NCBI RefSeq assembly: GCF_024218775.1
Contig: NZ_CP100405.1
Coordinates: 1-64,000, forward strand
DNA: 64,000 bases
From: Haloarcula marina
GTDB taxonomy: Archaea > Halobacteriota > Halobacteria > Halobacteriales > Haloarculaceae
Direction: 5' to 3'
Positions 2,055-7,518 of the stretch are shown here, one piece after another. Numbering within the stretch: the stretch's first letter is position 1; each line of letters opens with the position of its first letter. The notes beneath the pieces are model-generated. The model worked only from the letters and a program-made list of their open reading frames with translations, was not told the origin of the DNA and ran no database searches. The position numbers and the translations under genes were made by a program.

Positions 2055-2792
2055 CTACCGATTCCTGACCCGGCGACCCTGTGCCTTCAGCAACGCGACG
2101 AGGTAGCCGAGTCCCGCCCGTGCGTTCTTGGTCCGTAACGCCGAGACAGCACCCAACAACCCCATCGGCTCGCTCTTCCGCTGTGCCTCGCCGAGCGCGC
2201 CGAGTACCGTATTCATACCCTCGACAGCGTCGTCGTCCAGTTCGAGCGCCGAGAGCGCCTGTGCGGTGTCGACGAGTGCCGCGAGGTCGCCACCCCGCTG
2301 GAGTTCCAGCACCACGTCCAGCGCGTCGACGAGGTCGCTCCCGTTGTCCTCCAACATCGTCGCCAGTTCCTCGACCTCCTCCGACGAGAGCGATTCGGTG
2401 AACGCCGTCGCCACCGTGGCGAGGTCGTCGACGTGGCCCTCGCGCTGGAGGTCGACCACGGTTTCGAGCGACGCCGAGAGGTCGTCCGCGTCCTCGCCAA
2501 GTTGGGTCGCGAGCGCCGCCGCTTCCGCCGTCGAGAGGCCGTCAGCGGCTTCGACGAGATTCGCCGCGGAGTCGGTGACGTGCTGTACCTCGGCCTCGTC
2601 GGCGCTGGCGGCGACGAGAATCGCCGTCGTGAGCGCGTCGTCCAGTTCGTCGCTGCTCTGGACCAGCGCCGCCAGTTCGTCGCCGCGTTCGGCGAGGGCC
2701 TGCTCCAGCGCGGCCCGGCCCTCGTGGTCGGTGGCGTCCTCGCGCTCGCCGTTGGTGGCCGTCGTCGGGTAGGACTGCTGTGGCTTCGCCAT
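2055..2792 (-). CDS. DUF1641 family protein of the formate dehydrogenase operon
   Basis: A 245-residue acidic, almost entirely helical protein. It has repeated Leu/Ala/Asp helices across residues 25-200 and a C-terminal segment (MGLLGAVSALRTKNARAGLGYL) typical of DUF1641 proteins, which are commonly encoded beside molybdopterin formate dehydrogenases. The biochemical role is unknown; a maturation or membrane-association role has been suggested for the family by context. It starts one base after the catalytic subunit stops, so it is the fourth and last gene of that operon. No cofactor ligands are visible. Confidence 0.8.
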   Translation of the reverse strand: MAKPQQSYPTTATNGEREDATDHEGRAALEQALAERGDELAALVQSSDELDDALTTAILVAASADEAEVQHVTDSAANLVEAADGLSTAEAAALATQLGEDADDLSASLETVVDLQREGHVDDLATVATAFTESLSSEEVEELATMLEDNGSDLVDALDVVLELQRGGDLAALVDTAQALSALELDDDAVEGMNTVLGALGEAQRKSEPMGLLGAVSALRTKNARAGLGYLVALLKAQGRRVRNR

Positions 2793-2793
2793 C

Positions 2794-5067
2794 TCAGTCG
2801 TCCCCCGTGGTCGTCTCGGCGGCGGGTGTGGTCGGTTCCGCTTCGGGTCCGGCCGCCCGCAATCGGACGGCGGAGACCTTGAACTCTGGCGTCGCCGCAG
2901 ACGGGTCGAGGCGTTCCTCGTCGGTGAGTCGGTTGACGGCGCTTTCGGCGAAGTGGATGGGGACGAAGACGTTATCGGGGCCGACGCGGTCGGTCACTTG
3001 GGCCGGGACGACCACTTCGCCCCGTCGGGATTCGACGGTGACGAGGTCACCGCTCTCGACGCCGAGCGACGCCGCAGTGTCGGGATGAATCTCGACGAAG
3101 TCGCTGGGCGTGTACTGCATGATACCCTCCTCGCGGTGCGTCATCGTCCCGGTGTGGTACTGATAGAGGACCCGTCCGGTGGTCAGGGTGAAGGGGAACT
3201 CGTCGTCGGGGGTCTCGGCGGGTTCGCTGTAGCCGATACCTTGGAGGTTGGCCTTCCCGTTATCGGTGTTGAACTCCTCAGCGTAGAGCCGTTCGGTCCC
3301 GGGATGCTCCTCGTCCCAGCAGGGCCACTGGAGGCCGCCGTTCGCCTCGACGCGGTCGTGGGAGACGCCGCCGTACAACGGCGTCAGCGAGTTCACCTCG
3401 TCCATTATCTCGGCCGTGTCGGCGTAGTTCCAGTCACGCCCCATCCGGTTGGCGAGGTCCTGCAGAATCTTCCAGTCCGGTCGGGAATCGCCTTTCGGCT
3501 CCATCACCTGCTTGACCATCTGGACGGTCCGGTCGGTGTTGGTGAACGTGCCCGTCTTCTCGACGAACGAGCAGGCCGGGAGCACCACGTCGGCGTACTG
3601 GGCCGTCTCGTTGACGAACAAGTCTTGCACGACGAGGAATTCGAGGTCTTCGAGCACGTCCTCGGCGTGGTTGACACCGGGTTCGGAGAGCGCGGCGTTC
3701 TCGCCGATGATGTACATCCCGCGGATGTCGTCGTCGTCGGCCGCGAGGAACATCTGGGTGGTGTAGTAGCCGTACTCGCCGGAGATGTCACAGTCCCACG
3801 CCTCCTCGAACTTCGCGCGAATCTCGTCGTCAGCGATATCCTGATACCCCGGGAAGTTGTCCGGGAGCGGTCCCATGTCGCCGCCCCCGCCCTGGACGTT
3901 GTTCTGGCCGCGGAACGGCGAGACGCCCGCGCCGGGCTTGCCGAGGTTGCCGGTGATGGCCGCGAGGTTCGCCATCGCCATGACGTTCTCCGTGCCGTGG
4001 GAGTGTTCGGTCAGGCCGAGCGTCCACCCGAAGACGCAGGCGTCGGCGTCGGCGATTGTCTCGGCGGCCGACGCGATTTCCTCGTGCGGGACGCCGGTGA
4101 CTTCCTCGACGCGTTCGGGGGTGAACTCCTGCACGGACGCCTTCACGTCCTCGAACCCGGTCGTGCGTTCCGCGACGAACTGCTCGTCGTGGAGGTCGTT
4201 CTCGATGATGTACCGGGTGATGCCGTTAATCCAGACGGCGTCGTAGCCGGGCTTGACCTGACTGTACTGGGTCGCGTACTCGGCTATCTGTATCTCCCGC
4301 GGGTCGAAGACGAGGAGGTCCCCGCCGTCGCGGACGTTCTGCTTGATGCGGGTCGCCAGCACCGGATGGGCCTCCGTGGTGTTGGACCCCGTCAGGAGGA
4401 TGCAGTCGGCGAGTTCGAGGTCCTCGGTACTGATGGACGCCGCGCCGTAGCCGTACGTTTGTGCGAGGCCCGCGACGGTCGAAGAGTGACAGAGGCGGTT
4501 GCAGTTGTCGACGCTGTTCGTGCCGAGTACCTGCCGGGCGAACTTGCCCATCAGGTAGTTCTCCTCGTTGGTCGCCTTCGAGGAGGCGATGAGCGAGAGC
4601 GCCTCGCCGCCGTACTCATCCTTGATGCTGCCCAAGCCCTCGGCCACGCGAGCGAGGGCCTCGTCCCACGTCGCCTCGCGGAACTCCCCGTTCTCGTCCC
4701 GCACCAGCGGCGACGTGAGGCGGTCGTCGGAGTTGACGAAATCGTAGCCGAACTTCCCCTTCACGCAGGTGGAGATGCCGTTGACCGGCGCGTCTTCCTC
4801 GGCGGTCGGGCGGGCGGCGAGAATCTCTTCGCCGTCCGAGTAGAGGTCGAACCGACACCCGACGGCGCAGTACCCGCAGGTCGTATCGGCGACGTTCAAC
4901 TCTTCGAGGCGCTTATCGCCGATGGACTGGGCGATTTCGAACAGTTTGCCCTCCGAGAGGGTGTCGGCGGCGACGCCCTCCGCGACGTGTTCGACGTTCT
5001 GTAAGGCCTGTTCCTTGGCCTGTTGCATGTAGCCAGCGACGCCGTCTAGCTCGTCGCTCACGGCCAC
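2794..5067 (-). CDS. fdhA: formate dehydrogenase catalytic (alpha) subunit
   Basis: A 757-residue molybdopterin oxidoreductase of the FdhF/FdhA type that oxidises formate to CO2. An N-terminal [4Fe-4S] motif CGYCAVGC with a fourth Cys in CVKGKFG lies at about residues 63-107. The active-site segment DNCNRLCHSSTVAGL near residue 190 carries Cys where bacterial FdhF has selenocysteine, and no in-frame UGA is needed. The molybdopterin dinucleotide domain (FPFTLTTGRVLYQYHTGTMT, then a DPSAATPEFK end) is intact. The start overlaps the preceding ferredoxin-type gene by 10 bases. No Tat signal is visible, so a cytoplasmic enzyme is likely. A broader molybdopterin oxidoreductase is possible, but partner genes favour formate. 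Confidence 0.9.
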   Translation of the reverse strand: MAVSDELDGVAGYMQQAKEQALQNVEHVAEGVAADTLSEGKLFEIAQSIGDKRLEELNVADTTCGYCAVGCRFDLYSDGEEILAARPTAEEDAPVNGISTCVKGKFGYDFVNSDDRLTSPLVRDENGEFREATWDEALARVAEGLGSIKDEYGGEALSLIASSKATNEENYLMGKFARQVLGTNSVDNCNRLCHSSTVAGLAQTYGYGAASISTEDLELADCILLTGSNTTEAHPVLATRIKQNVRDGGDLLVFDPREIQIAEYATQYSQVKPGYDAVWINGITRYIIENDLHDEQFVAERTTGFEDVKASVQEFTPERVEEVTGVPHEEIASAAETIADADACVFGWTLGLTEHSHGTENVMAMANLAAITGNLGKPGAGVSPFRGQNNVQGGGGDMGPLPDNFPGYQDIADDEIRAKFEEAWDCDISGEYGYYTTQMFLAADDDDIRGMYIIGENAALSEPGVNHAEDVLEDLEFLVVQDLFVNETAQYADVVLPACSFVEKTGTFTNTDRTVQMVKQVMEPKGDSRPDWKILQDLANRMGRDWNYADTAEIMDEVNSLTPLYGGVSHDRVEANGGLQWPCWDEEHPGTERLYAEEFNTDNGKANLQGIGYSEPAETPDDEFPFTLTTGRVLYQYHTGTMTHREEGIMQYTPSDFVEIHPDTAASLGVESGDLVTVESRRGEVVVPAQVTDRVGPDNVFVPIHFAESAVNRLTDEERLDPSAATPEFKVSAVRLRAAGPEAEPTTPAAETTTGDD

Positions 5068-6026
5068 TCACCTCCCTCGAATCCCGCCCACCCGTCGTCG
5101 GCTACGTCTTCGGCGGCGGGCGCGTTCGGCGTCGATCCGTTCGCGCTCGGGTCGCCGGATTCGCACCGGTCGGCGTCGCGTTTCTTCGGCGTCATCGGTC
5201 CCTTCGACCGACCGCTGCTCTCGACGGATTTCCCGATACTGTTCTTCTGGGTGAAGCCCGGCAGTGGAATCGTGGTCGCGTCCTCGATGCCCTTCTCGAC
5301 GAGCGACCCGGTCGGGCACACCGTCGCGCAGTGTCCGCACGAGACACAGGTCGAGTCCTCCATCGTCTCGGCGTCGCTCTGGAAGCCGATACGAGTGTCC
5401 TGTCCGGACCCCTCCATCCGGAGGACGCCCTCCACCTGCACGTCGTTGCAGGCATCGACGCAGCGGTTGCAGAGAATGCACTTGTTGCGGTCTATCTGAA
5501 TGAACGACGACGTGTCGTCCAGCGGTTCGTACTCCTCGCGGTCGTCGAGGACGCCGTATCGCGGTTCCTCCACCTCCTCGTCGATGGCGGCGTCCTGCAG
5601 TTCACACCGACCGTTCTTGCCGCAGGTCGTACACCGGAGGTTGTGGTTCGACAGCACCAAATCGAGATTCACGTCCCGGGCCTCGGCGGCCGCCTCCGCG
5701 TCGGTGCTGACGGCCATCCCGTCCTCGGCGGGATGGCTACAGGCCGGGACGATGCCGTCCGCCTCTGTCTCGACCATACAGGTCCGGCACTCGCTTCGCG
5801 GGCCGATTTCCTGTCTGTCGTAGCTACACAGCGCCGGGACGGAGTCGGCTGTGTCGACGGCCTCGACAGCGTCGAGCAGCGTCGACCCGGCCGCGACGGT
5901 CACCTCGACGCCGTCGACGGTCACGGTCGCCCGGTCCGGCCCGCCGACCGCGGGGTCGGCCGCGGTACCCGGTGCGATGTCCTCTGTCAGCGGCGGCGCG
6001 TCCTCGTGTGCGTGGTCTGAACTCAT
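5058..6026 (-). CDS. formate dehydrogenase iron-sulfur subunit (NuoG/HoxU-like)
   Basis: A 322-residue electron-transfer protein. Cluster motifs run in order: a [2Fe-2S] ferredoxin domain (LCSYDRQEIG, CRTC, then ACSHP) at about residues 67-97; a His-Cys3 motif (HNLRCTTCGKNGRC) near residue 130; and two [4Fe-4S] motifs, CILCNRCVDAC and CVSCGHCATVC, at about residues 180-240. This is the N-terminal layout of NuoG and of the alpha subunit of NAD-linked formate dehydrogenases, here as a separate polypeptide. The last 80 residues are low-complexity. It lies between the NuoF-like gene and the catalytic subunit, and should wire the molybdopterin site to the NuoF-like subunit. Confidence 0.88.
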   Translation of the reverse strand: MSSDHAHEDAPPLTEDIAPGTAADPAVGGPDRATVTVDGVEVTVAAGSTLLDAVEAVDTADSVPALCSYDRQEIGPRSECRTCMVETEADGIVPACSHPAEDGMAVSTDAEAAAEARDVNLDLVLSNHNLRCTTCGKNGRCELQDAAIDEEVEEPRYGVLDDREEYEPLDDTSSFIQIDRNKCILCNRCVDACNDVQVEGVLRMEGSGQDTRIGFQSDAETMEDSTCVSCGHCATVCPTGSLVEKGIEDATTIPLPGFTQKNSIGKSVESSGRSKGPMTPKKRDADRCESGDPSANGSTPNAPAAEDVADDGWAGFEGGEWP

Positions 6027-6027
6027 A

Positions 6028-7518
6028 TCATGTCACCTCGACTGTCTCCGGACAGCTATCGGTCGGACAGGTCCCGTCGGCGTGGGCCTGCAACTCCGCT
6101 TCGAACTCCGCGAGCGCGGTTCGGGCCGGTCGGCCCGCCTCGACGCCGAACGCGCAGATGCTCGATGTATCCATCACTCGGACCAGTTCCTCGATGTCCT
6201 CTGGGGCGTACGACCCGTCGTAGATGTCGCGCAGCAGTTCCGCGAGTTGGGTCGTCCCCTCCCGGCAGGGGACACAGCGACCGCAGTTCTCGTCGGCCGC
6301 GAACTGCGCGCGCTTCCCGACGAACTCCAGCACACAGCGGTCGGCGGCGAGAATCTGCACCGTCCCCTCCGTTCCGAGGTCTGCGTCGGTGAGCGGTTCC
6401 GGGGCGATGCTCACATCGAGGTCCCGCGTGAGACCGCCGAATCGGCCGCCGACACAGGCCGCTTTGAACTCGCCGTCGACAGCGACGGCGTCGACTGCGT
6501 CCGCCAGCGTGGCCGACGCCGCCAGTTCGACCGTCACTGGCGCGGCGACGTCGCCCTGTACGGTCACTGCGCGGGTCGCGTCGGCGTCGCCGTCCCGCAA
6601 CGACGCCGATAGCTGTGCCAGCGTGCGCGGCGTGTGTAACACCGTCGGCTGACCGTGCAGACCGACCGACTCCGGCCCCGGCGGGCGGATACGGGCCTCC
6701 AATCGGTGATTACCTTCGACGGCTTCGAGGGCCATCGTCGGCTCTGCGGCCCGGTATTCGGCCGGACCGGCGACCACATCGATTGCTGGCGACCCCTCTG
6801 GATGCTCGGCGGCGGCCTCGCGGACCGTCTCGACAGCCCGTTCGTCGGCCGTCGACGCGTAGACGATGACCGCCTCGGCCCCGACGCAGTCGGCGACGGC
6901 CGTCGCACCGTCGAGCACGTCGTAGGGTGCGCTGGCCAGTAACAGGGCGTCCGCCGGGTTTCCGTGGCCGTTGACGACAACGGCGGGGTCACCACCCGTA
7001 TCTCGGACAGTTTCCCACGTAGGTGTGAGTGGCGTGTCTTGACAGATATCTCCCCATCCGCGCCCGTGGATGGCCTCGCCCGCCGCCAGTACCGCGTCCG
7101 GGCCGGGGTCGCCGAATCCGCCCGCCGCCTCGTGGTCCGCGGGATTCGTGGGGCGTCGCCATCCGGCCCCGCCGAGCATTCGTCGTCTGTCACCGCCGAG
7201 TCCCGACAGGTCGACCGCCGGGAACCGCGCCGTGTCGGGGTCGTGTTCGGCGACGGCGTCAGGTTCGGCCGCTCGAACGTCGGACCCCGCCGCGACGCTG
7301 GCGACGATTGTGTCCATCTCGGCCGTCGAACACGCCGTGTGGAACGCCGTCTCGTCGCCGTCGGTCACCGTGACTAACGGTTCGAGCGCCGGGACACCGG
7401 TCGACCCGACCTCGACGGCCCGTACGTCGGCGTCAGCGGCCACCGACAGGAGGTCTGGGGACGACCCAGCGCCCGAGATTCGTATCGTCGGTCCCTCCGC
7501 TGCGATGATGGATGCCAT
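6028..7518 (-). CDS. NuoF-like subunit with eroded FMN/NAD site
   Basis: A 496-residue protein aligning by eye with the flavoprotein subunit of complex I and NAD-linked formate dehydrogenases. The C-terminal [4Fe-4S] region is intact (NCGRCVPCREGTT, then SSICAFG) at about residues 408-456. The usual nucleotide and flavin signatures are altered: the GRGGAGFPTG site reads MLGGAGWRRPTN, the CNADEGEPG site reads VVNGHGNPAD, and the CGEET region has no Cys (AEYRAAEPTM). It is the first gene of the operon, one base before the iron-sulfur subunit. No NuoE-type [2Fe-2S] gene is present nearby. It may pass electrons to ferredoxin or another carrier rather than NAD+, which is inference. Confidence 0.75.
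   Translation of the reverse strand: MASIIAAEGPTIRISGAGSSPDLLSVAADADVRAVEVGSTGVPALEPLVTVTDGDETAFHTACSTAEMDTIVASVAAGSDVRAAEPDAVAEHDPDTARFPAVDLSGLGGDRRRMLGGAGWRRPTNPADHEAAGGFGDPGPDAVLAAGEAIHGRGWGDICQDTPLTPTWETVRDTGGDPAVVVNGHGNPADALLLASAPYDVLDGATAVADCVGAEAVIVYASTADERAVETVREAAAEHPEGSPAIDVVAGPAEYRAAEPTMALEAVEGNHRLEARIRPPGPESVGLHGQPTVLHTPRTLAQLSASLRDGDADATRAVTVQGDVAAPVTVELAASATLADAVDAVAVDGEFKAACVGGRFGGLTRDLDVSIAPEPLTDADLGTEGTVQILAADRCVLEFVGKRAQFAADENCGRCVPCREGTTQLAELLRDIYDGSYAPEDIEELVRVMDTSSICAFGVEAGRPARTALAEFEAELQAHADGTCPTDSCPETVEVT

Follow-up and report, generated by a model that had tools for sequence, protein, structure and literature searches.

ForCE1 and ForCE2 of Bacillus subtilis (YjgCD and YrhED; PDB 8rqz) are formate dehydrogenases in which ForE, a protein of the DUF1641 family, is indispensable and couples the oxidation of formate to menaquinone (PMC8808070; reviewed in PMC13397495) and also supports the integrity of the catalytic subunit, ForC (PMC8808070). 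ForC is a single chain with an N-terminal Fe-S domain and a CQ/RGH active site, and it has no NuoF-like subunit. The NAD+-dependent formate dehydrogenases of the FdsABG type, from R. capsulatus and C. necator, contain FdsB, whose N-terminal thioredoxin-like domain lacks [2Fe-2S] ligands (PMC7171172), and FdsG. A similar fold occurs in the HydB, NfnB, and NuoF diaphorases of NAD-linked hydrogenases, Nfn-ABC, and complex I, and a cryo-EM study names six residues of NiFe-HydB that contact FMN or NAD (PMC8880783). Our literature search, which was thin on subscription journals, returned nothing on a haloarchaeal formate dehydrogenase with a NuoF-like subunit.

The haloarchaeal operon analyzed here resembles all of these systems in part. 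It combines a catalytic subunit of the line shared with ForC, a DUF1641-family partner encoded beside it, and a NuoF-like subunit with the whole-chain fold and N3 ligands of the diaphorases but without their FMN/NAD signature. NuoF homologues of this kind, which have lost their FMN and NAD residues, their N-terminal [2Fe-2S] residues, and in part of the lineages N3 ligands as well, are maintained under selection in many haloarchaeal genera; they constitute a natural experiment on the functions of NuoF besides NADH chemistry.

Gene content of the operon

The window, i.e., the whole 64,000-nt stretch of DNA that was analyzed, comprises bases 1 to 64000 of the 310-kb plasmid NZ_CP100408.1 of Haloarcula marina YSSS71. 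It contains a compact minus-strand operon of four genes, encoding a NuoF-like protein, a NuoG-N-like Fe-S protein (G), FdhA (fdhF; A), and a DUF1641 protein. The features are as follows.

6028..7518, minus strand: NuoF-like subunit, 496 aa, WP_254280515.1, without a recognizable FMN/NAD(H) site, N3 ligands present
7003..7077, minus strand: former FMN loop 1, NuoF-like residues 148-172; GRGGAGF to GRGWGDIC, TGLKW to TPTW
6901..6984, minus strand: former FMN loop 2, NuoF-like residues 179-206; CNADEGEPG to VNGHG, without EPG
6619..6768, minus strand: former FMN/NAD loop 3, NuoF-like residues 251-300; CGEET to AAEPT, NNVET to HTPRT
6154..6285, minus strand: N3 [4Fe-4S] ligand region of the NuoF-like subunit; Cys412, 415, 418, and 455 all present
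5058..6026, minus strand: NuoG-N-like Fe-S subunit (G), with [2Fe-2S], His/Cys [4Fe-4S], and two more [4Fe-4S] clusters
2794..5067, minus strand: FdhA, Mo/W formate dehydrogenase alpha subunit, active site CH/RGQ; RefSeq start at 5028
2055..2792, minus strand: DUF1641 (ForE-family) protein, 245 aa

The open reading frame at 6028-7518 matches the coordinates of RefSeq WP_254280515.1 exactly. A second copy of the operon lies on the largest contig of the same genome, and its NuoF-like protein is 61% identical to that of the window. Sequencing error was rejected as a source of the altered motifs, given that the RefSeq record and this second copy agree. The DUF1641 gene, the fourth of the operon, went unmentioned in the initial annotation.

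Loss of FMN and NAD(H) residues in the NuoF-like subunit

The signatures of flavin and nucleotide binding are altered throughout the NuoF-like protein. GRGGAGF aligns with HGRGWGDIC, CNADEGEPG with VVNGHG-NPAD (the EPG part being deleted), and CGEET with AAEPT; the Lys of TGLKW is replaced by Thr167, the two Asn residues of NNVET by His295 and Thr296, and its Glu by Arg298. Among the FMN-binding motifs (GRGGAGF, TGLK, NADEGEPG, and NNVET), only GRG, Asn183, and Thr299 remain. In our own alignment, five of the six FMN/NAD contacts of NiFe-HydB are changed and the Asn alone is retained: Lys, Glu, Phe, Phe, and Glu correspond to Thr167, Gly186, Thr170, Gly281, and Pro260, among which Thr170, Gly281, and Pro260 replace the NAD(H) contacts Phe180, Phe307, and Glu287. 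The N-terminal domain also lacks the [2Fe-2S] cysteines of HydB, as does that of FdsB.

Of the near-invariant columns in an alignment with ten canonical sequences (six haloarchaeal hydrogenase-type HydB/HoxF proteins, a clostridial HydB, two FdsB-type proteins, and E. coli NuoF), the protein retains 28 of the 78 that precede residue 300 and 16 of the 20 in the C-terminal region, with columns missing from the window protein scored as lost. This alignment to NuoF families, which the initial annotation had proposed as a check, bears out its observation that GRGGAGF, CNADEGEPG, and the Cys of CGEET are altered. Its wording that no FMN/NAD motif is recognizable holds for the binding residues but not for the domain, which Pfam still detects (Complex1_51K, 39 bits against a cutoff of 31; NADH_4Fe-4S, 77 bits). 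Because domain recognition persists, it is the cofactor-binding residues that have gone, and the fold has been kept.

Structure prediction agrees with retention of the fold. An AlphaFold2 model built with 52 homologues has a pLDDT of 91.6 and a pTM of 0.91, and in comparisons with Foldseek and VIA-align it resembles NfnB, HydB, and FdsB over its entire length (Z of 46.2 and rmsd of 2.7 over 472 residues against 9bp5_B; Z of 43.6 and rmsd of 2.0 over 379 residues against 7t2r_B, a flavin-free apo HydB). The fold of NuoF and FdsB is therefore predicted to be retained, and such a prediction carries no ligand information in itself.

A [2Fe-2S] NuoE-type partner was not detected either. The initial annotation had noted that no NuoE-like gene lies in the operon, and a search with PF01257 extends this to the whole, 99.9% complete genome; the same search was positive in seven named genomes, including that of Haloferax volcanii. 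Judged from sequence, this subunit is very unlikely to be able to bind FMN or NAD(H) as NuoF does, and NuoF-type flavin chemistry has very likely been lost from it. That the protein binds FMN and NAD(H) in an unrecognized way and serves an NAD-linked enzyme is very improbable: the predicted fold, the GRG core, Asn183, Glu259, and a classical formate dehydrogenase gene neighborhood are in place, but the Lys, acidic, and aromatic contacts and the EPG loop are missing, and neither NuoE nor FdsG was detected genome-wide. Relative to FdsABG, then, the operon shares the FdsB-like fold, the FdsA-like wire, and N3, and differs in the changed FMN/NADH residues, the undetected FdsG/NuoE, and the presence of a DUF1641 partner instead.

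Distribution among Halobacteria

NuoF-like matches were found in 112 of the 292 sampled Halobacteria genomes and fall into three tiers. Tier A proteins are 50 to 66% identical to the window protein and come from loci with separate G and A genes and a DUF1641 gene. Tier B proteins are mostly 40 to 51% identical; in their loci G and A usually form a single fused gene, and DUF1641 gave no match. Tier C proteins, at about 30% identity, have canonical FMN/NAD motifs and no FdhA, and provide a positive control from the same archaeal class; one such locus (L073:5035-11451) has a NuoE-HydB-HydA-hydrogenase-like gene set and canonical FMN/NAD motifs. Since only 11 of the 112 matched genomes contain tier C alone, tier A or B is present in about 100. 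This implies that an NAD-linked label for these enzymes would be a mistake in about 100 of the 292 genomes sampled.

The motifs are altered in all 52 of the tier A and B proteins that were aligned (20 tier A and 32 tier B), whereas the six hydrogenase-type sequences from haloarchaea included in that alignment are canonical, which argues that the change is not due to chance. A long branch with full support separates tiers A and B from the rest of the tree, and tier A forms a clade (100/99). The simplest reading is that the flavin site changed once, on the branch leading to tiers A and B, and that this predates the association with DUF1641. DUF1641 alone does not explain the loss of flavin, because tier B has the altered NuoF without DUF1641 in the locus.

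Other NuoF-like genes fall outside this pattern. Stand-alone genes, about 36% identical, occur at L079:3006-4496 and L080:6882-8360, with no FdhA or G in the fetched locus. Copies that appear broken (L131:6001-7416, L081, and H27 [NZ_CP095006.1]) show an in-frame stop, a split frame, or a two-piece match with a transposase annotated under it. A Rhodococcus plasmid gene (L173:4773-6253) has largely canonical motifs and adjoins ferredoxin and Rieske dioxygenase genes.

Conservation of the former pocket and of cluster N3

The former FMN/NAD region does not look decayed. Within the tier A proteins, conservation peaks at residues 251-300, the former CGEET/NNVET segment, with a mean column identity of 0.88 as opposed to 0.76 for the N3 domain. 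Five residues that are new to this group (D157, E265, E274, R298, and R316) are invariant in all 52 tier A and B proteins, and two more are nearly so (H295 in 51 and T296 in 48). Across nine close pairs of relatives, the dN/dS of the NuoF-like gene is 0.15 to 0.34, indicating purifying selection, and it exceeds that of G and A in eight pairs. The old pocket thus combines the highest conservation, new invariant residues, and purifying selection, and it looks to have been rebuilt and maintained, i.e., remodeled rather than decaying. A damaged gene or pseudogene was considered and rejected on the same dN/dS values and on the recurrence of the altered motifs in every aligned homologue.

Rebuilding could have served a new ligand, such as a quinone head group or a regulatory nucleotide, turning a diaphorase into a new electron exit or a sensor in formate dehydrogenases that occur throughout an archaeal class; we regard this as rather unlikely. 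Set against the menaquinone-linked model presented below, a pocket rebuilt for a different cofactor or regulatory ligand, in a subunit that is still catalytic or sensory, is a decidedly doubtful account of the locus: the conservation of residues 251-300 in tier A and the five invariant residues favor it, but such conservation may also stem from packing or from an interface between subunits.

All four N3 cysteines (412, 415, 418, and 455) are present in the window protein, in agreement with the earlier description of an intact C-terminal [4Fe-4S] region, and the N3 ligands are intact in all 20 tier A proteins. Among the tier B proteins, 13 of 32 have lost one or two of these cysteines, 10 reading SCGC (L056, L057, L059, L065, and L084-L089) and three reading CCGC (L058, L061, and L069), through at least two separate events on the tree. 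The dN/dS of these genes shows no relaxation relative to that of N3-intact pairs. In the G subunit, by contrast, the 15 Cys and one His that are the expected ligands of four clusters are invariant in all 52 proteins. With the N3 ligands lost in part of tier B while those of G and FdhA are invariant, selection preserves the electron path between the Mo/W site and G, but the step that follows not in every lineage.

Lineages that have lost N3 ligands can hardly use the NuoF-like subunit as their principal electron exit by way of a normal N3 cluster; in the window, where N3 is intact, relay through it would still be feasible. The suggestion of the initial annotation that the subunit is now structural is plausible, because these tier B genes remain under purifying selection without a full set of N3 ligands.

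DUF1641 and the electron acceptor

The DUF1641 protein of the window matches PF07849 at 32 bits (cutoff, 21). A DUF1641 gene lies directly downstream of that for FdhA in each of the 24 named loci of tier A, and in no tier B locus. Similarity to ForE itself is weak: a search of the sequence against the PDB gave no significant match, ForE1 scored an E value of 0.15 by profile and ranked under chance-like ribosomal matches, and the AlphaFold model of the protein has a pLDDT of 42, too low to be of use.

Outside formate dehydrogenase loci, all 10 of the sampled haloarchaeal DUF1641 genes adjoin a type III sulfide:quinone reductase-like gene. These loci resemble the operon in having DUF1641 directly beside a predicted quinone reductase, and differ in that the partner is an FAD enzyme rather than a formate dehydrogenase and that their DUF1641 proteins share about 30% identity with that of the window. 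TusA-family genes also stand beside DUF1641 in four annotated loci of this set (L177-L187 and L189). Because DUF1641 partners two unlike enzymes, both quinone reductases by family, menaquinone is favored, by association, as the acceptor; MK-8 and its variants have been reported in a haloarchaeon (PMC5437934). DUF1641 may therefore be a more general adaptor between soluble dehydrogenases and menaquinone. In tier B, we found no conserved partner that replaces DUF1641; MobA-like and AOR genes recur there, and no electron carrier does.

The initial annotation had proposed ferredoxin or another carrier as the acceptor. The second term would cover menaquinone, which it left unnamed, and the first has become less well supported. 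A soluble ferredoxin could take the formate electrons from N3 or from the [2Fe-2S] cluster of G, with DUF1641 merely stabilizing the complex, much as ForE also supports ForC integrity (PMC8808070); the N3 ligands present throughout tier A would suit such an exit, and the haloarchaeal complex I, which lacks the NADH module, has been proposed to use reduced ferredoxin (PMC5437934). However, no ferredoxin gene occurs in the operon or is annotated in the region read, N3 ligands are missing in 13 of 32 tier B proteins, and DUF1641 is linked to quinone enzymes, leaving this route unlikely but appreciable. The absence of NuoEFG from haloarchaeal complex I (PMC5437934) also raises the prospect that the module, with its NuoG-N and NuoF folds, serves that complex as another arm for electron input. 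This is the least likely of the readings: no nuo genes occur in the annotated loci read, the module is missing from most sampled genomes, and part of the family has lost N3 ligands.

We consider it reasonably probable that the operon encodes a menaquinone-linked formate dehydrogenase with a flavin-free NuoF-like subunit and DUF1641. The enzyme would be cytoplasmic and belong to the FdsA/ForC line of Mo/W formate dehydrogenases, with FdhA and a NuoG-N-like Fe-S subunit as separate chains, and electrons would pass from the Mo/W site to the [4Fe-4S] cluster of FdhA, through the clusters of G (5058-6026), and to menaquinone instead of NAD+, at an exit site formed or stabilized by the DUF1641 protein. 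The NuoF-like subunit, with its fold and N3 cluster retained here and with neither FMN nor NAD(H), would most likely cap the Fe-S arm structurally, perhaps also acting as a one-electron side relay through N3, and its old FMN/NAD pocket would be closed or reused. The assembly of this complex and the structural role of the subunit are inferred, as is menaquinone as the acceptor. Against the model stand the intact N3 in the window and all of tier A, the altered NuoF of tier B loci that have no DUF1641, the CQ/RGH site of ForCE and its lack of NuoF, the slightly better match of G to FdsA than to ForC, the failure to detect FdhD (see below), and the weak similarity of DUF1641 to ForE1.

By analogy, the haloarchaeal complex probably works like ForCE, with which it shares the N-terminal Fe-S domain, the DUF1641-family gene beside the catalytic gene, and the lack of a detected NuoE. 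It differs in the split of FdhA from G, in its CH/RGQ site, and in the presence of an altered NuoF, and it lacks the two-subunit organization of ForCE. Since ForC has a CQ/RGH site and no NuoF, we do not file the haloarchaeal complex as a member of ForCE.

Catalytic subunit and gene neighborhood

FdhA passes the TIGR01591 equivalog model (825 bits; cutoff, 666). The active-site Cys-His and the CxxCxxxC [4Fe-4S] ligands are present in all 52 proteins, and the active site reads CH/RGQ in all 20 of tier A. The closest solved structure is ForC1 (644 bits, as opposed to 532 for FdsA); taken by itself, however, G is marginally closer in score to FdsA. Family membership and gene context point to formate as the substrate.

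No match to FdhD (PF02634) was found in the H. marina genome or in any of the 292 Halobacteria, though many carry FdhA and eight control genomes were positive. FdhD is an accessory for formate dehydrogenase activity in E. coli and not a feature of the FdhA protein itself. It is a sulfurtransferase described as crucial for the activity of formate dehydrogenases (PMC8808070). That it went undetected in all 292 genomes implies either that a substitute protein does its job or that the reaction differs.

On the plasmid, window positions 9383-41605 hold a C1/folate and betaine-type demethylation island. Its genes encode FolD, formate-THF ligase, dihydropteroate synthase (FolP), MTHFR, DHFR, two DAO-GCV_T flavoproteins, and two BCCT transporters; a cyclohydrolase-family protein and an aminomethyltransferase-family protein are also encoded in this plasmid region. 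On pNG700 of H. marismortui, a tier B locus lies near a formaldehyde dehydrogenase gene and the same BCCT and anthranilate-synthase genes, and in Halomicrococcus a tier A operon lies near ETF, folP, and a trimethylamine methyltransferase-family gene. From these neighborhoods we infer that the operon likely serves the betaine/folate C1 island by oxidizing formate derived from the methyl groups of betaine-like solutes.

A second FdhA-like molybdoprotein, of about 650 aa, with a CH/RGL site and a score below the formate dehydrogenase cutoff, does not follow the operon in the window but does so in 17 of 19 tier A loci and in three tier B loci (examples of this protein are L044:1592-3547, L038:11882-13858, and L048:986-2905).
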